Assembly (NCBI RefSeq): GCF_009766105.1
Contig: NZ_LMUH01000007.1
Coordinates: forward strand, 191,999 to 255,998
DNA length: 64,000 bases
DNA from: Granulicella sp. S156
GTDB lineage: Bacteria > Acidobacteriota > Terriglobia > Terriglobales > Acidobacteriaceae
Direction: 5' to 3'
Shown: one piece after another, positions 773 to 55,280 of the stretch
How positions within the stretch are numbered: the first letter of the stretch is position 1
Layout of the letters: each line of letters starts with the position of its first letter
Translations under genes and position numbers: made by a program
Notes under the pieces: generated by a model
The model's input: only the letters and a program-made list of their open reading frames with translations
Told to the model about the DNA's origin: nothing
Database searches by the model: none

Positions 773-1840
773 TTAGAGAAGCTTTTTGACGGGTCCGGCG
801 GAGATGCTTGCACCTTGCCCAGGATCTGGTAATGGGTTATGTCCGGCATCGTGAAGGACCCAGATCTGCTCTGAACGGCTTACAGGCATCCCGGTGACGA
901 TGATGTACTTTTGGCCCTCACTCTCAAAGGAGATACGATTTTCCTGGACCTTCGCCGGCACCGCGCCGGTAACCTCGGTTGCCGAGAGCAGGAAACGCCC
1001 CTCGCCGGGTACGAAGAGGAGAACACCCTCACCAGGCTGGTCGGTATCTGCGCTGAGGTGGGTCAGATCCCCTGCTACCTTACTGTTTTTTAACAGTAAG
1101 GGTGAGTTAAGCCTGATTTCATTTGGCCCTGGGTCAAGTAGCTGACTATCAGCAAACTTCACTGGAATGTGGTCAGACCAATCTCCGGTGAGCGCAAGTT
1201 TGAGTTCTCCCGTATTGGGCAGCGAAAGAGACTGTCCTGGCGTAAACCAGACCTGCGTCTCAGGCAAACTGGCTTCTACATCGGGACCCCAACTGGCTGG
1301 TCCCAGTGGTGAGACCTTCGCCCTGACCGATAGCAGCGCGCGGTTACCGTCTTTACGCAACGCCTTCAGGGCAAACATCAGGTTTGTTTTATCGATCTGT
1401 GTAAGTCCTCCGCAGCCATTGTGGTTGGGGTCAGACATCGATATGTCACAAGAGATGGTGTCGCCCTGTGCAGGTGTGAGCTTCAACAGCAGCACCGAGC
1501 CATCATCATGTGCGCGAACTTCGACTACCGCCAGCCGTGAGCCTAAAACAACAAGCAATAGGACCAGACAAGCGAACGCAATTCTTGGGATACGCATCAT
1601 TTCCAACCCTTTCTTCCATAGCGTGATTCTGTCTTGCTTTGTTGTGAGCCATGTGCGATCCGGGACCGGTTCTGCGATCAGGACGCCGCCATAACTACGC
1701 AATGCGGCTCCCATCTGGGCATACTCCTTCAACAACTCCTGGCAATGCGCACAGCAGGCCGTGTGTTCTGCCGCTTCAAACGGCATCGTTTCTCCGTCAT
1801 ACAATGCCGATACATACTCCTGGACCTCATCGCACCTCAT
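773..1840 (-). CDS. Anti-sigma factor with N-terminal zinc-finger and periplasmic domain
   Basis: Predicted 355-residue membrane anti-sigma factor. The N-terminus (residues 1-60) carries an H-x3-C-x2-C motif (EHTACCAHCQ), typical of ZAS-type domains that hold ECF sigma factors in the cytoplasm. One membrane segment lies near residues 83-105 (IPRIAFACLVLLLVVLGSRL). The remaining 250 residues would be periplasmic and resemble no domain I recognise; they look beta-rich. The start overlaps the end of the sigma-factor gene by 14 bases, which implies translational coupling and a cognate pair. The unusually large outer domain suggests it senses an envelope signal, but that is inference. Confidence 0.8.
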   Translation of the reverse strand: MRCDEVQEYVSALYDGETMPFEAAEHTACCAHCQELLKEYAQMGAALRSYGGVLIAEPVPDRTWLTTKQDRITLWKKGLEMMRIPRIAFACLVLLLVVLGSRLAVVEVRAHDDGSVLLLKLTPAQGDTISCDISMSDPNHNGCGGLTQIDKTNLMFALKALRKDGNRALLSVRAKVSPLGPASWGPDVEASLPETQVWFTPGQSLSLPNTGELKLALTGDWSDHIPVKFADSQLLDPGPNEIRLNSPLLLKNSKVAGDLTHLSADTDQPGEGVLLFVPGEGRFLLSATEVTGAVPAKVQENRISFESEGQKYIIVTGMPVSRSEQIWVLHDAGHNPLPDPGQGASISAGPVKKLL

Positions 1841-2393
1841 GCAAATCTCCTTTGGCTGCTCCGAGCCAGATCTCCCGCAATCCCTGCCGCGCCATGAATA
1901 ATCTCGACCGCACTGTCCCTACCGGGATGTCGAAGATGACTGCAAGCTCGGCGTACGATTGGCCCTCGACTTCCCGCAACCAGAGCAACGTCCGTTGCTC
2001 TTCAGGAAGACGTCGCAAAGCGTCCGCGATCAGAGATTCACCCTCTGGATCGGAAGCCGCACACCTGTCGTCCGCCAACGGGGATTGGGGTTTACTCCGC
2101 CGCCACCACTCCGCAGCCCGATGCCGTCCTATGCCGAAGAGGTAGGCACGAACGGTTCCGCGTGCGGGATCGAACCCGTCCGGATGGCTCCAAAGATGCG
2201 TAAAGATCTCCTGTGTCAGGTCTTCAGCGGCTTCGGACGATCCGACCATCTGCCGCAGGAAGGCACGCAGCCTCGATGCGTTCTCGCGATACACCGCTGC
2301 GAAAGTGTCAGCTTCACGCGCCCACTCCTTCGCAGCCTTGGGTTCAAAGATCAATGTCCGTCTCCACCTTGATATTCGTGCCGAACGACCCAA
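1827..2393 (-). CDS. ECF RNA polymerase sigma factor
   Basis: 188-residue ECF (group 4) sigma factor. Region 2 spans about residues 30-100, with a DLTQEIFTHLW segment matching the DxxQEvF.. signature and AYLFGIGRHRAAEWWRR after it. Region 4 spans about residues 125-180 (LPEEQRTLLWLREVEGQSY, then the helix-turn-helix IPVGTVRSRLFMARQGLRE). It is the first gene of a two-gene operon with the overlapping anti-sigma gene. The first 20 residues are weakly conserved and no clear ribosome site precedes ATG 2391-2393, so a later non-ATG start is possible. Confidence 0.9.
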   Translation of the reverse strand: MGRSARISRWRRTLIFEPKAAKEWAREADTFAAVYRENASRLRAFLRQMVGSSEAAEDLTQEIFTHLWSHPDGFDPARGTVRAYLFGIGRHRAAEWWRRSKPQSPLADDRCAASDPEGESLIADALRRLPEEQRTLLWLREVEGQSYAELAVIFDIPVGTVRSRLFMARQGLREIWLGAAKGDLHEVR

Positions 2394-2705
2394 AAGTTCA
2401 TCGAGGAACGAAAGAAAATGATTCTCGCAGCAGTTGAGTCACTTCGCACAGAGGAAACTATGCCCCATCCGGCAAGGAGCTTCCCTAGGCCAGATGGCCC
2501 ATTTTATAAGCGAAGATGTTCCTGATCGGCGTCCGTTGCCCTATGAAATCACCTCTAGCTGGGTCGGCATTGCTAGACACTTTTGTCGTCACGAAACTCC
2601 CTAATAACCAATAGTTCGGAAGTTAGAGTGAAACCCTCCTTCCGGGAATGAGCTGCCGAGAGTTCTTAGCGAATCTTCTGACGAAGCCGCTCATCCAAGA
2701 TCGCA
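2394..2705. other. Intergenic region between divergent sigma-factor and AraC genes
   Basis: This 312-base gap must hold the promoters of both divergent genes. I see no strong palindrome, no hairpin with a T-run and no ORF with a ribosome site. An ECF autoregulatory promoter would be expected near 2400-2450, but I cannot assign its -35/-10 boxes by eye. Confidence 0.5.
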
Positions 2706-3500
2706 ATGGGTTCCGTGCGCCATTTCGTTCACCAGCCAGGAGGCGACCTTCGCCGCTATGTGCGCGAGATTCTATGGGTCCGTTCGGAGCATTCCCGGGT
2801 ACAGGTATTGCTGCCCGAGACTACACTCACCCTTGTGCTGCGGCAGTCTGGCTCGGCATCGTTGCACCAGGAGACTCTTCCCAACGCAGTCGTCTCCGGC
2901 TTGCAACAGCGAACCCGCAGAGTTGAGCACGCGCCGGGATCCTCGATCGTGATTGTTCGGTTCACTGAGGTCGGAGCTCCCGCCATACTGCACGACCGTG
3001 CGGACCTGCTCTACAACCGGACGCTGCCACTCGACAATCTCCTGCCATGCCAGGAGATCGACCGCATACAGAATGTGCTCGTCGATAACAGCGACATGCC
3101 ACAACAGGTTCTTGCGATGGAACGCTTTCTCACTCGCCGGATTCAGGCATCGAATGAAATCTCTCCGCAGATTGAGGCGGCTGTACAGATGATCCGAAGC
3201 TCCAAGGGCCAGTCTTCCATTGCAGCGATTGCGCGTCATTCCGCTATGAGCCAAAGCGCCCTGGAAAGACACTTTCGCTCCGCAGTGGGCGCGACGCCGA
3301 AAAGCCTCTCGCGTTTAACCAGACTGCAGCATGTTTGCCGTCTATGGGATACCGGAAAGACCCTTACGGAGATCGCCTTTGAGGCCGGCTACAGCGATCA
3401 ACCGCATATGGTGCACGACTTCCGGCTCTTCACGGATACCTCTCCTGAAGAGTTCTTTCGCAGTGCCGGCCCTCGCAATCTGCCGACTTTTTACAAGTAG
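2706..3500 (+). CDS. AraC family transcriptional regulator
   Basis: 264 residues. The C-terminal 100 residues form the double helix-turn-helix of AraC/XylS regulators: SIAAIARHSAMSQSALERHF (first HTH) and KTLTEIAFEAGYSDQPHMVH (second HTH), followed by DFRLFTDTSPEEFFRS. The N-terminal 150 residues are the effector-binding part, similar to the cupin-like DUF6597 domain found in many such regulators. The next gene, a small exported YCII-domain protein, begins 30 bases downstream on the same strand, so the two may be cotranscribed. Confidence 0.9.
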   Translation: MGSVRHFVHQPGGDLRRYVREILWVRSEHSRVQVLLPETTLTLVLRQSGSASLHQETLPNAVVSGLQQRTRRVEHAPGSSIVIVRFTEVGAPAILHDRADLLYNRTLPLDNLLPCQEIDRIQNVLVDNSDMPQQVLAMERFLTRRIQASNEISPQIEAAVQMIRSSKGQSSIAAIARHSAMSQSALERHFRSAVGATPKSLSRLTRLQHVCRLWDTGKTLTEIAFEAGYSDQPHMVHDFRLFTDTSPEEFFRSAGPRNLPTFYK

Positions 3501-3530
3501 CCTTTGCGTTGCGTTCGCTACCTTGGGGGC

Positions 3531-8050: not shown

Positions 8051-8113
8051 CAAATACTCCGCTGTGACAACGAACCGTAATCCTTCCGGCTCGTTGTCAC
8101 AGCGGAGTATTTG
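8051..8113. repeat. 23-bp perfect inverted repeat upstream of TonB receptor
   Basis: The arms 8051-8073 and 8091-8113 (beginning CAAATACTCCGCTGTGACAA on the left) are perfect inverted copies. After one mismatch, CCG/CGG extends the stem by three pairs, leaving a 9-base loop. It lies in the 351-base gap 7812-8162, about 50 bases beyond the dioxygenase stop codon and 240 bases before the receptor start. It may terminate dioxygenase transcription, though the stem is long and not followed by a T-run. Apart from this I see nothing in the gap but presumed receptor promoter sequence. Confidence 0.6.
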
Positions 8114-9531: not shown

Positions 9532-12500
9532 CTAGTTCGTTCCAACTTCAATTCCGTTGATCTGCGGATTATCCGCAGCGCCCACTACGAACTGAATCGT
9601 GATGGTTCCTGTGCTGTCCGCAGTCACTGCGAACGACTGCACCGCAGCGATGAACTCACCATTAGCCGACGCGAAGATGTCGTAGTTCGTCAGCACCTGA
9701 TTGCCATTGATGAGAACGTTGAACTGCCGTTGCCCTGGCGCTGTCCAGTAGGTCTCGGCGAAGTGCAGGTCCACAATGTACTTCCCTCCTGGAGTGAACC
9801 CAGGAATCGTGTACGTCATCGGACCATAGCGATTCGTCTGATAGACCGCCTCGGGCGCAGGATTGGGAATCTTCGAGGTGTTGACCGAGGCGCTGGTGCT
9901 TGTCGCTGTGCCGCCAGAGAAATCTTCATCGGCAACCCAGGCACCTGCTGCAGCGCCACCGGCGTTGATATCCAGAACGTCCGAGGCAATTGCGCCACCT
10001 GCAGTTGGAGTCGTGATGCTGGCCTCATTCGTAGCTGCCGAAAGACCTGCATTGTTCAGGGCCGCGACGGCGTAGTAGTAGGTTGTCGCCGGGTTCGCAC
10101 TCGTATCCGAGTAGGTCGTGCCCGTTATTCCTGAGACCAGCTCAGTGGCAGCCGTAGTGGCAAATCCAGCCTGCTGGCTGCGGAACACGCTGTAGGTAAC
10201 TCCCGGAGTCGCACTTGCGGTCCACGCCAGGTTGACCTGGTTCGTCGACACTTCGGTTGCGGTCAGCTTCTTCGGAGCGCCAGGAATCGCCGGGCAGTTC
10301 GTCGTGCACGCAAGTCCGATCTCGATGCCGTTGATCTGCGGATTATCCGCCGCCCCCACGGTGAACTGGATCGTAATAGTGCCAGTGGAGTCGGCAATCG
10401 CAGACAACGACTGGACGACCGCGGCGTCGATCTTGCCGGCGTACGCGATGATATCGAAGTTCTTGAGCACTTCCTTGCCGTTGATGAGCACGTTGAATTC
10501 GCGCTGCCCCGGCGAGGTCCAGTAGCTCTCTGCAAAGTGCAGGTCCACGATGTACTTCCCATTCGGCGTGAGACCCGGAATCGTATACGTCATTGGACCG
10601 TAACGATTGCTCTGATACACAGCCTGTGGCGCTGGGTTCGGGACGAGCGAGGTGTTGATCGCTGCTCCGGTGCTGGTCGCTGTGCCGCCGGTAAAGTCTT
10701 CGTCCGCAACCCAGCTTCCTGTGGCGTTGCCGCCGGCGTTGATGTCGATAACGTCCTGGCTGACGGGTCCTCCGGTGCCCGGTATCGTGGCGTTCGCCTC
10801 GTTGGAGACGCCCGACGCGGCACTATCGTTCACCGCCTCGACCACGTAGTAATAAGTTGTTCCAGGATTCACCTCGTTATCCGAGTACGACGTTCCAATC
10901 ACGCCCGAGTACACCAGATCGCTGGGCGAAGGCGCGAAGCCCGAAGCCATACTGCGGAAGACACTGTAACGAACACCCGGGCTGAAGCTCGGTCTCCAGG
11001 ACAGATTGATCTGATTGGAAGATTCCACGACCGCCTTCAGATCAGTGGGCGCTGCGGGAGCCTCCGGGCAACCGTAGACGCACGGCGCGCCTTGATAGAA
11101 CGGCAGAAAGCTCGTCTGGATTCCACTCTCGACCGGTCCACCGGCATCGTCCACCACATGCGTGATGGAGCCGCTTCCGCTCAGGAAGACGGAGACGGCA
11201 TGCGTCACCGAAACGCCGGGCGTGTTCGGGACTGAGATCGCGCTGTCTTCGACGATGGGAACTCCCTGGTCGAAGTACGAGTAAACGCCCATGCCATAGG
11301 CTGCATGATTTGTGACCTGCGGGGCCACAACGTACGAGGGATAACCATTGGCGCTGCCATCCATCCATGCGCTCTGACTAGGCGGATCATAAGGCAGCTC
11401 GCTCTGATAGAAGATCGTCTCGCCGCGTTCACCGTTCCACTGAACCTGGGTCTGCTCGTAGTGTTCTACTGCAAGGCCCAACGCGGTGACGTTGTCGCCG
11501 TTGACGATCAGGCCGTGCTCGGCCACGTTGTCGGTCCAGCCAACTCCGTTTCCGTGGTCCGCGCGCCAGGCCCAGATGTTGTCCAGGATGACATCGTTGC
11601 TATCGATCTGGAGGGTGGTGGTCGCAGTACCGGGAGTGCCTCCACCGATGCGGAAGAAGACGTCGTTGAGCGATGTTGGATTCCCATGGTGAGAGAGTCT
11701 CCAGCCGTTCTGATTGCCAAACCAGTTATGCGAGCCACCAATCTGCACGAGCACAGGCGAGTTCACTGGGCCTGCATCAATCAACAGACCCGCAAGCTGT
11801 ACACCATCGACATCCTCAACCGTGATGGCGGAAGTTCCCGTCTGCGGAACCAGCGTGGCGTAGCCCAGACCAAGCACGATCGTGTTTGGCCGGATGACGT
11901 TGATCGATCCTTTGAGTGGATAGATGCCGGGCGTCAGGATCAGATTCTTGCCCTCTGCCAACGCGATGTTGATCTGCGCAACCGGAGTGGAAGGCTGCGC
12001 GATGAAGAAGTCATCGATCGAGAGTGAGTATCCATGACCAAGCCCGTGTGACCACGTAATGCCGGACGAGCCTTCCTGCACCGTCGGCACGAAGACCTTG
12101 AATCTGTTCTGCTTGTCCACGTAGAGGAACGGCTTCTCACGACTTACCGGAGTCGTTGGCAGAACCGTGAACGCATTGCTCGGGTAGTTCGAAAACGGCG
12201 CACCCTCCACACCCGCAAAGACCTGGTTCCAGACACTGCCGCTCCAGCTCCCAATCTTGCTATTGCGAGTGAACCACTGCTGCTGCGAGCAGGAGTTGAG
12301 CGTGCCAGTAACGACGGTATCCGAGATGAAGCCGCCGCTTGAATAGTTGCAGGCAGCGTTGGTCAACTCCAGTGCGCCATTGACCTGCATACGCCGGAAG
12401 GAAATGCCCTGCGAGACGCCCCACTGCAGCGTTGACGGCGAGTTCTCTGTCATGTTCTCAATCGAACGCCAGAAGATGGTGGTCAGCGCTCCATACTGGT

Positions 12501-31746: not shown

Positions 31747-31766
31747 AAGCCACCTAACCTGCGAAG

Positions 31767-31795
31767 GGGCCCTTGGCCCTAAAGATCAAGGGCCC
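31767..31795 (+). terminator. Terminator hairpin after the BlaI-M56 operon
   Basis: GGGCCCTTG (31767-31775) and CAAGGGCCC (31787-31795) pair perfectly, starting 20 bases after the M56 stop codon. A looser T-rich stretch follows about 15 bases later. Confidence 0.65.
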
Positions 31796-31887
31796 GTTCA
31801 CATCCAGCGATTTTCTTTTCATCTTCCCCAAGTGAATGGCGTTGGCATTGGCCTCGGGCTTTTTTGCGTGCATTGGCAAACAGCCCG

Positions 31888-31974
31888 GGGCTAAAGCCCA
31901 GTTCTTGCGTGGCTTTATTCCGTAGCCTAAAGGCTACGGCTCCCTCCGTCTCCCTGACGCTGAAGCGTCAGGGA
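31888..31974. repeat. Three consecutive T(A/G)AA-loop hairpins
   Basis: GGGC-TAAA-GCCC (31888-31899), CCGTAGCC-TAAA-GGCTACGG (31920-31939) and TCCCTGACGC-TGAA-GCGTCAGGGA (31951-31974). Stem sequences are unrelated, but the loops follow one pattern. They lie in the 344-base gap 31747-32090 between the convergent M56 and GH18 genes, where no ORF is supported. Confidence 0.7.
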
Positions 31975-32044
31975 ACGCGCTTCGCACTGTAGTGAACGGG
32001 CCATCATTATTCAATGAGCTAACGACCCAGGACCCTAGACGTTG

Positions 32045-32077
32045 AGAAGGGAGGCGAACGTGAGTTCCCTCCCTTCT
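32045..32077 (-). terminator. Terminator hairpin after the GH18 gene
   Basis: AGAAGGGAGG (32045-32054) pairs with CCTCCCTTCT (32068-32077). Inside, GAAC/GTTC extends the stem beyond a single bulged C. It begins 14 bases past the GH18 stop codon on the minus strand. Confidence 0.65.
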
Positions 32078-32090
32078 GCAGTCACAGCGA

Positions 32091-51732: not shown

Positions 51733-51803
51733 CGTCCCGATTGCTTTTGAAAAATCTTCCTTTGTTCCTACGGTGGAGGTGCACCGAAGCTCTGGAGGAC
51801 GAG

Positions 51804-54590
51804 ATGGAGCATTACCGGATCGGAGTTGCTTGCAGGACCTACTGGAAACTCGCGGCTCTCCTAATGGGCTCTTTGAACACTGTACTCATATTCTCCCAAC
51901 AGCCCTGTACGCAAGGATTTTCGGTTGAAGGTATCATTCGCGACACCACGGGCGCTGTCATCCCCAACGCTCAGGTACAGACCCCTGACGGCAAATCGGC
52001 TTCGACCGATTCGGCTGGACATTTTTTATTGTCCTGTGTACCGGAGACTTCGACGACGATCACGGCGCAGGCAGATGGCTTTGCGCCTGGAACAGCCACT
52101 ACGATCAGGCAGTCAAATGCTGTCGCTCACGTGGACATTCAACTGCGGGTTGCGGGCGAAGAGACTGATGTCGAGGTGGGTGATGATGCCACGGCGATGG
52201 ATGCCGATCACGGTGCAGGGACGCGCAACCTGAATACCCAGGATGTGCAGCAGCTCTCCGATGACCCGGACGATTTTCTCCGAGAGTTACAGTCGCTCGC
52301 GGCCAGTGGCGGCGGCATGCCCGGCCTGGCTCTCGTCACTGTCGATGGCTTTCAGAACACGAGTGCCTTGCCACCCAAAGGTTCTATCGCTTCCATTCGC
52401 ATCAATCCGGATATGTTTTCAGCGGAATATGAGAGGGCTCCCTATTTAGGCGGCCGCATCGAGATCTTTACGAAGCCTGGTGCGGACCCCTTTCACGGAG
52501 CGCTGTTCCTTACAGACAGCGACGGCAGCTTCAATGCGACGGATCCCTTCTCCGTAACAGCAACACCGGCAGGAAAGCGGAGATACGGCTTCGAACTGAG
52601 CGGGCCGGTTGTCCCAAAGAAAATCGACTTCTCCCTCGCCCTCGAAAAGCGCGACATCGATGAGTTCAACGTCGTCAACGCGGTAACACTGAATGCGAAT
52701 GGCGATCAGGAGCCGCTGCAACAGACAGTGGCAGCTCCGCAGCGGCTATGGATCGCTTCGGAGCGTAACGACTGGCAGATCAGCCCGAAAGATACAGCGA
52801 CACTTTCCTTTTCGGCCAATGTCAACAACCTCGGCAATCAGGGCGTGGGTGGCCTTACGCTTGCCGAAGCCGGCTATTCGAGTCTGGTGAACGAGTACGA
52901 TCTGCGGCTAAATAATACGTTGACGCTCAGCCCCAATCAGTTGCACGAAACTCGGATCGGCTATACATGGAAACGCACCGAGCAGACGCCTCTCTCGACC
53001 GCGCCATCACTTGGGGTAGCCGGATACTTCACAGGAGGAGGAGCGACAAGTCAGAACCTGAACGATCGTGAACGCGACCTTGAAGTGGATGATGACCTGA
53101 TGGTCACCCAGGGCAAACACTCGTGGAAGATTGGCGCTCAATCGCTCGGCAGCTTTGTGCATGACGATGACCCAAACACCTTCAACGGAGCCTATCTGTT
53201 CGGCGGAGGCAGTGCTCCCATTCTCGATGCAAATAATAATTCAACCGGACAGACCACCACGATCAGTGGCATCGAGCAGTACCGGCGCGCCTTGTTGAAT
53301 CTTCCAGGCGGCTCACCCACCACCTATCAGGTCACTACCGGCACGCCGCTGGTTCCCTTTACGCAGTGGCGCGTAGGCCTGTTCGGACAGGATGCCATCA
53401 AACTAACCCCTCACCTCAGCGTGATCGGAGGACTTCGCTACCAGCTGCAGACCGCTCCGAGTAGCTTTGCCAACTTCTCGCCGCGCGTTGGCCTGGCGTG
53501 GGCGCCGGATAAGAAATCGGCCTGGGTAGTTCACATGCGTGCAGGGGTCTTCCGTGCTCCCAACTACCCGAACCTTGCCACAGAGGTCTACCGCCTGAAT
53601 GGTATCCGGCAACAGCAGACAACAGTCTATTCGCCAAGCTACAACCATCCGCTGACGCTCATTCCTGGAGCCATTCAGGTGAGCACGGTGAATCAATTTC
53701 CGCAGTCTCTCCATCAGGTCTCATCGCTCCAAACGCACCTCGGTATCGAGCGCACGTTCCACAACGGCTTGCACCTGGCGACCACCCTCTATTGGTTTTC
53801 TAACTGGGGAGAGATACAGACCAGGAATATCAATGCTCCTCTCATCGGCAGCAGCGTTGGAACCCCACCCGATCCGACTGCTGCTCTGCTCGCTCCAAGA
53901 CCCTATGCACCGAACGAAAATATGGTGCAGTATCAGAACTCCGGTCATATGAACGGCAACATCTTTGTCTTCGGTGGTGACCGAAACACCGGAAAACGAT
54001 TCAGCCTCTCCATTTACTACATTCACGCCAACGCAAAAACTGACGCGACGAGTGCTGTCGGCAGCCCGCAATCCAGCTATAGCAACCAAGGTGAGACCTC
54101 CCGCCCCGACTGGTTGGCGGGAGATGCGGTCTATGTTTCGGGCATCATCCACCTGCCCCGCAAATTGGAGTTCTCTTCGGTGCTTGATGCTAGAAATGGC
54201 CAGCCCTACAACATCACCACCGGTACCGATGCGAACGGGGATGGAGATTTCAACGACCGTCCTTCCTATGCATCGGCCCCAGGCCCAGGTGTGTACAGCA
54301 CGCGTTTCGGATTGCTGACTACAAATACCGTGAATGGCAATGTTCCGCGCAACCTGGGAAGTACGCCAGCCGCGCTACATCTTGATGGAAACCTGAGCCG
54401 TGTTTTCACGTTGAATCCGAGAGACAAAGACCATCCGCGCACTCTCACCTTCAATGCGCGCAGTGCGAATCTGGTGAATCACACCAACGTCACAGCGGTG
54501 AATACGATCCTCTCGTCATCCACGTTGGGACAACCCCTCACCGCGGAGACCGCCAGACGCATAGAACTCGGAGTGCGCTTCGCCTTCTAG
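51804..54590 (+). CDS. TonB-dependent receptor with carboxypeptidase-regulatory domain
   Basis: 928 residues from ATG 51804 (GGAGG 5 bases upstream); the frame opens at 51741. A hydrophobic signal near residues 13-31 (LAALLMGSLNTVLIFSQ) leads into a CarboxypepD_reg-like domain (FSVEGIIRDTTGAVIPNAQV, residues 38-120). A reduced plug region (LNTQDVQQLSDDPDDFLREL, LALVTVDGFQNTSALPPKGS, SIRINPDMFSAEYERAPYLG, GGRIEIFTKPGADPFHGALF) and a barrel ending in LGVRFAF follow. It is shorter than the receptor at 4-8 kb and lacks the LPLNGRNF hallmark. It is divergent from a LytS/LytR-type pair that may control it. Substrate unknown. Confidence 0.9.
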   Translation: MEHYRIGVACRTYWKLAALLMGSLNTVLIFSQQPCTQGFSVEGIIRDTTGAVIPNAQVQTPDGKSASTDSAGHFLLSCVPETSTTITAQADGFAPGTATTIRQSNAVAHVDIQLRVAGEETDVEVGDDATAMDADHGAGTRNLNTQDVQQLSDDPDDFLRELQSLAASGGGMPGLALVTVDGFQNTSALPPKGSIASIRINPDMFSAEYERAPYLGGRIEIFTKPGADPFHGALFLTDSDGSFNATDPFSVTATPAGKRRYGFELSGPVVPKKIDFSLALEKRDIDEFNVVNAVTLNANGDQEPLQQTVAAPQRLWIASERNDWQISPKDTATLSFSANVNNLGNQGVGGLTLAEAGYSSLVNEYDLRLNNTLTLSPNQLHETRIGYTWKRTEQTPLSTAPSLGVAGYFTGGGATSQNLNDRERDLEVDDDLMVTQGKHSWKIGAQSLGSFVHDDDPNTFNGAYLFGGGSAPILDANNNSTGQTTTISGIEQYRRALLNLPGGSPTTYQVTTGTPLVPFTQWRVGLFGQDAIKLTPHLSVIGGLRYQLQTAPSSFANFSPRVGLAWAPDKKSAWVVHMRAGVFRAPNYPNLATEVYRLNGIRQQQTTVYSPSYNHPLTLIPGAIQVSTVNQFPQSLHQVSSLQTHLGIERTFHNGLHLATTLYWFSNWGEIQTRNINAPLIGSSVGTPPDPTAALLAPRPYAPNENMVQYQNSGHMNGNIFVFGGDRNTGKRFSLSIYYIHANAKTDATSAVGSPQSSYSNQGETSRPDWLAGDAVYVSGIIHLPRKLEFSSVLDARNGQPYNITTGTDANGDGDFNDRPSYASAPGPGVYSTRFGLLTTNTVNGNVPRNLGSTPAALHLDGNLSRVFTLNPRDKDHPRTLTFNARSANLVNHTNVTAVNTILSSSTLGQPLTAETARRIELGVRFAF

Positions 54591-54637
54591 AGTGGAATCA
54601 AGATAGCTGTACCCGTGGGAGGTATTTACTCCTACCC

Positions 54638-54825
54638 CACCACAAATCTGTCATCCTGAGCGCAGTCGAAGGACCGCGAGAGTTTTGGTCTTACCTATAT
54701 AGTTCACACCTTTCAACCAAAGCAGCCGAGGCGGGGTGTTCGAGGTGGAAAAGGTGCAGAATGTAGCGGCGAGATATAGGGTTTCGGGGTCCTTCGACTG
54801 CGCTCAGGATGACAGATTTGTGGTG
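54638..54825. repeat. 188-bp element with 38-bp perfect terminal inverted repeats
   Basis: Bases 54638-54675 and 54788-54825 are perfect inverted copies; the left arm starts CACCACAAATCTGTCATCCT and ends GTCGAAGGACC. The interior has further complementary segments: CCTATAT/ATATAGG and CACCTTT/AAAGGTG. The whole can fold into one branched structure. The gap 54591-54899 between the TonB receptor and the convergent small ORF contains little else. From memory, the TGTCATCCTGAGC...GTCGAAGG wording recurs in many acidobacterial genomes, so this is probably a dispersed non-coding repeat. No transposase is present. Confidence 0.8.
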
Positions 54826-54899
54826 ACATGAAAACACGACAGATCGGGTACAGCCACCTTGATTCTGCACTGAGCAAGCGCCCGTTGTGCTCTGTCCGA

Positions 54900-55280
54900 T
54901 CAGAAGATGTGTTTGATTCCCTTGCCTACACCTTTGACGATTTTGCCGGTTCCCTTCACCGAACCGACGGCCACGTCTTTGCCTGCGGAGACGCCACCCT
55001 TGCCGACAGAGGCGGCCGCATCAATAGGATGAAGCGTGACGAGGTCTACAGCACCCTTGCCTGTACCTTCGGCCAAGTTGCCTGCACCCTTGGCGGCGCC
55101 TTTGCCGATGTCTCCGCTTCCGCTGCCGATATCACCACCGGCGCTGCGGCCTTTTTTCTTGGTCTTTACGGTCTTCTGGCTCGTCGGTGCGACCTGATCG
55201 GAGTTGGACTGGCCCTGGGCGGTCACAACAACGGCGAATGCGAGTAGCAGTAATACGGTGAGTCCCAATTTGGTTTTCAC
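54900..55280 (-). CDS. Small secreted Gly/Lys-rich repeat protein
   Basis: 126 residues, not recognised. Signal peptide at 1-22 (LGLTVLLLLAFAVVVTAQG). The mature part is low-complexity: a Lys-rich patch (TVKTKKKGRSAGG) followed by irregular G-x-G-K repeats (GDIGKGAAKGAGNLAEGTGK, GAVDLVTLHPIDAAASVGKG, GTGKIVKGVGKGIKHIF). The alternating glycine pattern resembles amphipathic or glycine-zipper-like helices of small envelope proteins, but no function can be assigned. It has an upstream gap of 96 bases to the next minus-strand gene. Confidence 0.65.
   Translation of the reverse strand: MKTKLGLTVLLLLAFAVVVTAQGQSNSDQVAPTSQKTVKTKKKGRSAGGDIGSGSGDIGKGAAKGAGNLAEGTGKGAVDLVTLHPIDAAASVGKGGVSAGKDVAVGSVKGTGKIVKGVGKGIKHIF

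Follow-up and report, generated by a model that had tools for sequence, protein, structure and literature searches.

The ~284-bp palindromic element in the analyzed window, a 64-kb stretch of the genome of Granulicella sp. S156, belongs to a dispersed repeat family and is not a locus-specific terminator. It consists of two directional, REP-like units, which are arranged head-to-head with their tags facing outward and lie between the 3' ends of two genes. Judging from comparisons with other Granulicella sequences, we consider it about an even bet that the element is a sense-oriented RNA hairpin of 3'-UTRs, doubled between convergent genes and residing in spacers with fast turnover. The RNA role and the dispersal route of the repeat are what we infer from these comparisons.

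Structure of the element and its flanking genes

The earlier note on this DNA had described a perfect 38-bp inverted repeat with 112 bp between its arms and further complementary words in the interior that continue the fold, and both observations hold. The 38-bp arms are perfect complements, and the window contains only two perfect inverted repeats with arms of at least 20 bp within 1.5 kb, this one and a 23-bp repeat. Inward extension of the complementarity resulted in 76-nt arms (78%), outward extension revealed additional 21-nt arms (90%), and a gapped alignment of the left against the right side showed 84 matching positions out of 108. Together, the inward and outward complementarity delimit an imperfect palindrome that is larger than first noted (Table 1). 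Folded as RNA, positions 54590–54870 (281 nt) reached −161.8 kcal/mol, compared to a mean of −83.9 kcal/mol for shuffled sequences (z = −17.3; none of 200 shuffles was equal). The left end of the element, TAGAGTGGAATCAAG..., includes the stop codon (TAG) of the upstream gene, and the right end is its mirror image, reading CTCAGTGCAGAATCAAGG on the minus strand. The 23-bp repeat (positions 8051–8113, loop of 17 nt) is by eye unlike the studied element in sequence.

Table 1 Features of the palindromic element and its surroundings in the window
Feature	Position	Strand	Description
Upstream gene	51741..54590	+	Outer-membrane beta-barrel protein, carboxypeptidase regulatory-like domain (PF25183, PF13620); runs up to the element
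Whole palindromic element	54588..54871	.	Boundaries inferred from mirror symmetry and by-eye homology with the copies of relatives
Outer inverted repeat, left	54595..54615	+	
Left perfect 38-bp arm	54638..54675	+	
Left REP-like unit	54649..54675	+	TGTC tag on the 5' side; sense to the upstream gene
Interior	54676..54787	.	Partly complementary; common to other dimers of the same genome (long alignments, 74–79% identical)
Right REP-like unit	54788..54814	−	TGTC tag; sense to the minus-strand gene
Right perfect 38-bp arm	54788..54825	−	
Outer inverted repeat, right	54845..54865	−	
Convergent gene	54900..55280	−	126-aa product with no match in Pfam; conserved in five relatives (52–64% identity)

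The stop codons of the plus-strand and the minus-strand gene both face the element, and the two genes thus form a convergent pair. Their 309-bp spacer is nearly filled by the palindrome, with the stop codon of the minus-strand gene located 28 bp beyond its right end. A plus-strand ORF at positions 54828–55247, which our gene script had chosen, gave weaker translated matches than the minus-strand gene at all four loci matching both and is therefore taken as a shadow of the latter. No ortholog of the junction in the window was seen in the relatives, where the flanking genes matched at separate places (up to ten candidates scored per genome).

Each unit is a directional repeat composed of a (C/T)GTC tag and a foot, ATCCTGAGCG...CGAAGGAC. 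The copy in the window represents a short unit type; its own foot pairs as TCCT/AGGA only and is followed by a tail (CCG in the left unit and CCC in the right one). When folded as DNA, a lone arm from the window did not form a stable hairpin (z = −0.3 and +0.7). Four units of a relative with a closed 6.24-Mb genome (referred to as G003), folded singly, had z-scores of only −1.1 to −2.9. Since single arms are unstable, the strong pairing in the window copy is arm-to-arm only. A search of Rfam with the element matched no family.

A repeat family in Granulicella

The 26-nt core of the arm matched 11 times in the 6.4-Mb genome of strain S156 at up to three mismatches, and the reversed control did not match at all. 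This is the opposite of the single copy that the earlier note had named as the sign of a locus-specific terminator, and it substantiates that part of its proposal which regarded the element as a dispersed non-coding repeat. Two inverted arms were found at five places (C4, C15, C17, C24, and C13, which is the element in the window); the remaining matches are single or degenerate. The whole element had at least 24 matches at E ≤ 0.001 in its own genome (40 of 52 candidates scored), and the best four other places were 74–79% identical to it. The note's placement of the arm wording in Acidobacteria was borne out, all 13 stretches with an exact 31-nt pattern being assigned to Granulicella by name. 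A 16-mer of tag and foot was present at up to one mismatch in 27 of 28 Granulicella genomes (0 to 236 matches per genome; 0–2 for the reversed control). Six of the 28 genomes had only 2–4 matches of the 16-mer, and a tighter 26-mer at up to one mismatch occurred in six.

If the element were simply an intrinsic terminator serving both genes of the pair, its convergent position and strong hairpin would fit. We assign this explanation a very low probability, given that no GC-rich stem followed by a T-run was detected between positions 54400 and 55300 and that the element belongs to a dispersed family. Membership in a family contradicts the identity as a plain terminator, although the element may act as one terminator among others.

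The arrangement of the units was best seen in G003, where motifs were counted among the 183 of 198 matches listed. At least 174 exact motifs formed 67 pairs within 700 bp, of which 65 were in plus-then-minus order, i.e., with the tags outward, and 63 of these 65 had a spacing of 195–225 bp. Thus, 134 of the 174 motifs listed occurred in pairs and 40 were unpaired by the 700-bp test. In genome G002, most fetched loci contained one unit. The strand distribution of the 16-mer showed an excess of minus-strand matches in G002 (36 of 47, i.e., 36 minus and 11 plus on contigs whose orientation is presumably arbitrary) and in G005 (81 of 116). A replication-strand bias in G003, suggested by apparent single plus-strand units over 2 Mb, was discarded, as many of these units turned out to be halves of dimers in a fuller listing. 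In a further relative (G004), a 199-bp stretch holding the element is tandemly duplicated, and the two copies are 90% identical (G004:C6; L126, positions 423–820).

Among 40 fetched G003 dimers, the tag was CGTC in 79 of the 80 units and TGTC in one. A pattern test identified 36 of these dimers as heterodimers and left four unclassed. In the heterodimers, the apex of one unit reads, for example, GCGTCCC/GGGACGC and that of the other, for example, GCACCTCGC/GCGAGGTGC, and each apex pairs with itself. Compensatory changes were analyzed in 27 units of the second kind (25 distinct), picked as alignable. In the 25 distinct units, 99.1% of the cells in the apex stems were paired, compared to 27–54% in slid controls, and 11 cells were changed on both sides, compared to 2.0 in shuffles, of which none out of 500 reached this number. 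Of the five covariation measures, two were unremarkable in these G003 units, namely the tally of pairs with changes on both sides (41 of 500 shuffles) and that of pair types (176 of 500). One apex pair was G-U in 11, A-U in 10, and G-C in 3 of the 25 units, a mixture which indicates that G-U is tolerated on the tag-first strand.

The foot varied less than the apex. At 11 of 20 fetched G002 loci (L237–L256), the foot was unchanged and the apex stems were, by eye, very different yet self-complementary. Across 76 short units from the fetched loci, the foot variants TCCT/AGGA, TTCT/AGAA, TTCC/GGAA, and TCCC/GGGA all retained the pairing, and the first A of the foot was opposite C in 59 of the 76 units, 11 of which seem to be mis-registered by the foot pattern. 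Covariation between the two arms of G003 dimers showed no clear excess over the outer 12 nt (8.53 vs 8.34 expected; a value reached by 2189 of 20000 shuffles). Values higher than expected came from four of the 12 positions (3.25 vs 3.01 expected; 5 of 5000 shuffles) and from the variable base of GAGCGN (0.50 vs 0.32 expected; 55 of 5000 shuffles).

The outer parts of the element bear on the possibility that it is a MITE of a DDE transposon, whose terminal inverted repeats would be the outer ends and whose hairpins would be passengers. An outer inverted repeat is indeed present in the window, and an outer motif near GTAGTGTCTGACGAATCGG accompanies 12 of the 40 G003 dimers. We nevertheless attribute only a small probability to this explanation: the outer motif was not found at the other 28 dimers, no target duplication was seen at five G004 sites, none of which is a clean empty site, and the best conserved parts of the copies are the inner units. 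The two end sequences were also compared with parts of the S156 genome and with 400 kb of G003, and in the latter they matched solely where the tag motif was present as well. By eye, the outermost motif of the 12 dimers (among L169–L208) is an imperfect palindrome that starts with GTAG and looks like a second repeat type enclosing the first.

Gene context, spacer turnover, and the search for a transposase

The orientation of the units relative to genes, which were called by a simple ORF script, was determined for single units, i.e., units without a strictly matching partner, from the fetched loci of eight genomes and the 13 Granulicella stretches, which may repeat two of these genomes; identical contexts were counted once. 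The tag-side gene ran towards the unit in 36 of 41 cases (p = 8e-7). The 41 include some actual dimers, in which the second unit deviates from the strict pattern or falls beyond the fetched piece (L019 and L020 of the S156 genome and at least four of seven from G003). In co-directional spacers, the tag pointed towards the 3' end of the upstream gene at a ratio of 18:1 (p = 8e-5). Excluded from the 41 were 15 units inside a called ORF, units of dimers, and those that did not have called genes on both sides (in a closely similar alternative setting, these three groups comprised 14, 26, and 7 of 87 units). Without genomes G000 and G003, the values were 28 of 31 overall and 14:1 in co-directional spacers, and six further settings yielded co-directional ratios of 17:1, 16:1, 15:1, 11:2, 16:2, and 19:1. 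In a cruder reading of the G002 loci, the tag faced a gene end in 16 of 18 cases. For units of strict dimers in 420 kb of G003, a gene end was faced in 13 of 16 cases with one gene caller; with another caller, 18 such units were distributed over convergent (10), co-directional (6), and divergent (2) spacers. Three of eight strictly paired G003 dimers sit in co-directional spacers, and the positions of the 40 fetched G003 dimers, when roughly read, were convergent for 21, co-directional for 14, and divergent for 5.

Strong hairpins in general (z below −5, based on 20 simple two-base-block shuffles per spacer) showed a related distribution in these pieces of G003, with genes again called by a simple ORF script. 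Such a hairpin was present in 16 of the 30 spacers between convergent genes, in 23 of the 75 between co-directional genes, and in 1 of the 22 between divergent genes (convergent vs divergent, p = 2e-4; convergent vs co-directional, p = 0.04), the absolute shares being too high because several of the 21 pieces had been placed on listed motif sites. The spacers of the window showed no convergent enrichment (1 of 6 convergent, 1 of 10 co-directional, and 0 of 8 divergent), and the one co-directional hairpin is the studied element itself, the spacer of which the script had misread as co-directional, so that the corrected convergent count is 2 of 7. The enrichment has thus been shown for G003 and not for the S156 genome. 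Another convergent spacer of the window, at positions 31747–32090, contains a strong palindrome (z = −7.8) of a different repeat kind, GCTAAAGCCC / GCCTAAAGGC / GACGCTGAAGCGTC.

The 18:1 co-directional orientation lends support to the structured RNA which the earlier note had offered as an alternative. Each unit would belong to the gene towards whose 3' end the tag points, which is the upstream gene for the left unit and the convergent gene for the right one. As each unit is sense for its own gene, the same sequence would follow just past the stop codon in both transcripts. The tag-first strand would be the sense strand of the preceding gene, with a pairing tolerant of G-U, and the unit may act as an RNA hairpin that protects the 3' end and/or limits how far transcripts run into the opposing gene. 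One unit would then serve one gene and a dimer two convergent genes, and in the window copy the arm-to-arm structure could form in either transcript on read-through. Against such an RNA role, the orientation could also stem from insertion into the strand exposed by transcription.

The turnover of the spacers was assessed by comparing two 20-kb pieces of G003 with G004, the main blocks of which were 94–97% identical (the species are ~95% identical). Six dimer sites were anchored on both sides; a seventh (L235, 1095/1300) was left out because its left side was unanchored. One of the six sites was shared (96% identical, split over two contigs), and at the other five the G004 spacer was unrelated in sequence. 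Two of these five spacers contained another palindrome family, GCGCGAAGCGC..., which by eye is that of a Y1 locus in the S156 genome, one contained an apparent pair of another tagged type, GTCATCTCGACCG... (by eye), and two contained other sequence. Of 14 comparison spacers of at least 60 bp that lack these dimers and lie inside the aligned parts, 13 aligned fully; this count leaves out three more that lie at the block ends or past them. The ratio of non-homologous to homologous spacers was thus 5:1 for dimer sites and 1:13 for other spacers (p = 0.002), or 5:2 for dimer sites if one counts a dimer with a related tag, GTCATTCCGAGCG (L142 10712/10868), which both species have (p = 0.006). One more shared dimer site was found beyond these pieces (L119 and L124). 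Since shared sites exist alongside the five swapped ones, replacement is frequent but not universal. In its retention in G004, this GTCATTCCGAGCG pair with inverted units (G003, L142, positions 10712–10880) is unlike most pairs of the studied type. By eye, the palindrome at positions 31747–32090 of the window resembles the occupant of two of the swapped sites.

The avoidance of divergent spacers and the high turnover between sister species would also be expected of neutral debris of repeats, persisting wherever there is neither a promoter nor coding sequence. Such debris predicts neither the 18:1 orientation nor the compensatory changes in the stems, and we rate this explanation as improbable. 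We tentatively suggest, as a possibility below even chances, that the units are RNA modules of 3'-UTRs, oriented by the transcript, with a near-fixed foot and an interchangeable self-complementary apex, and that convergent spacers serve as slots in which the entire palindromic content is exchanged between unrelated families during species divergence without a dedicated transposase. The exchange of whole palindromic spacers between ~95% identical species would amount to a natural experiment, in which gene pairs that have a given hairpin can be compared with those that lack it.

The main rival explanation is a REPIN that is moved in trans by a Y1 (HUH) transposase of the RAYT type, which recognizes the tagged hairpin in single-stranded DNA; the RNA side would then be incidental. 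The tag and hairpin anatomy, the fixed spacing of head-to-head pairs, and the covarying local stems are all in line with this explanation, and insertion into the exposed non-template strand could cause the orientation bias. Moreover, a search with Pfam PF01797 in the S156 genome and nine relatives yielded Y1 matches in all 10 genomes (45 matches, two of which are parts of one S156 gene), and in G006 two motif matches are located ~3 kb from Y1 genes. However, a repeat pair was within 1.5 kb of none of the 45 matches and a lone foot motif at three of them, and the Y1 loci of the S156 genome lacked the motif, with three of the four flanked by other repeats. The MITE- or RAYT-type mechanism of the earlier note, which had advised looking for a transposase or RAYT gene with matching ends, thus found no counterpart near these genes. 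Furthermore, neither a target signature nor a clean transposon-like insertion with a matching empty site was present at the five comparable G004 sites, which hold unrelated spacers, and the same lack of a dedicated transposase is reported for CGTC repeats elsewhere in the available text of PMC3733652. Overall, we regard movement by a Y1 enzyme as rather unlikely. The Y1 genes of G006 were rejected as the source of the repeat, as other repeats surround these genes and no second copy of the pair flanks them. The outer GTAG-like motif was likewise dismissed as a handle for a RAYT; it occurs at 12 of 40 dimers and had one doubtful match in 44 Y1 loci, at the edge of L105. One Y1 transposase gene of the S156 genome lies amid up to six copies of a different palindromic repeat (L025, positions 1135–3501), and the two are a candidate REP-transposase pair.

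Comparison with known repeats

Like REPINs and GTAG REPs with RAYTs, the Granulicella repeat consists of hairpin units in inverted pairs, each unit having a tag that stays unpaired. It differs from them by another tag and by the lack of a RAYT-type gene with the pair within 1.5 kb (45 Y1 matches). It shares with MITEs the appearance of a short non-coding dispersed palindrome, but its outer ends vary and no target duplication was seen at the five G004 sites, none of which is a clean empty site. To our knowledge, the sequences of the E. coli REP/BIME elements and of the Granulicella unit are unrelated. Both are hairpins that follow genes, and an effect on mRNA stability is reported for the former in the available text of PMC12306157, where Granulicella aggregans is named in a table row.

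The repeat looks related to the CGTC-tagged REPs, which include dRS3 and the Rickettsia elements RPE-4 and RPE-6 (Di Nocera et al. 2013, PMC3733652). As far as the available text of that paper goes, CGTC repeats have no dedicated transposase, REPs mostly occupy the spacers of convergent and co-directional genes, close to 3' ends, with a possible action as RNA, and the orientation of single units relative to a gene is not given. Acidobacteria are absent from the five phyla listed there for CGTC repeats and are named solely for transposase genes flanked by TIRs, and we found no description of this repeat in Acidobacteria in the accessible portions of the open-licence literature. The Granulicella units carry a CGTC or TGTC tag at one end, in agreement with the published tag (CGTC, or TGTC/CCTC), they occur predominantly as head-to-head dimers (65 of 67 pairs among the matches listed for G003, and the copy in the window), they are found at the 3' ends of genes, and no repeat pair lies beside a Y1 gene (0 of 45). 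They differ in the stem, for which the available text describes 8–9 bp with a paired A-T start that the Granulicella unit lacks, in the tail, which is mostly CCA in that text and CCC or CCG in the window, and in an apex of variable length with ~110–120 bp between the two units. The instability of the lone arm in the window also counts against calling the unit a typical REP. The element probably consists of two head-to-head copies of a REP-like repeat that stands close to the CGTC-tagged superfamily, and because of the deviating stem and tail we regard it as a variant of these repeats and not as a member. For CGTC-type repeats, an orientation bias combined with compensatory stem changes would shift the question from the enzyme that moves them to their role as RNA.
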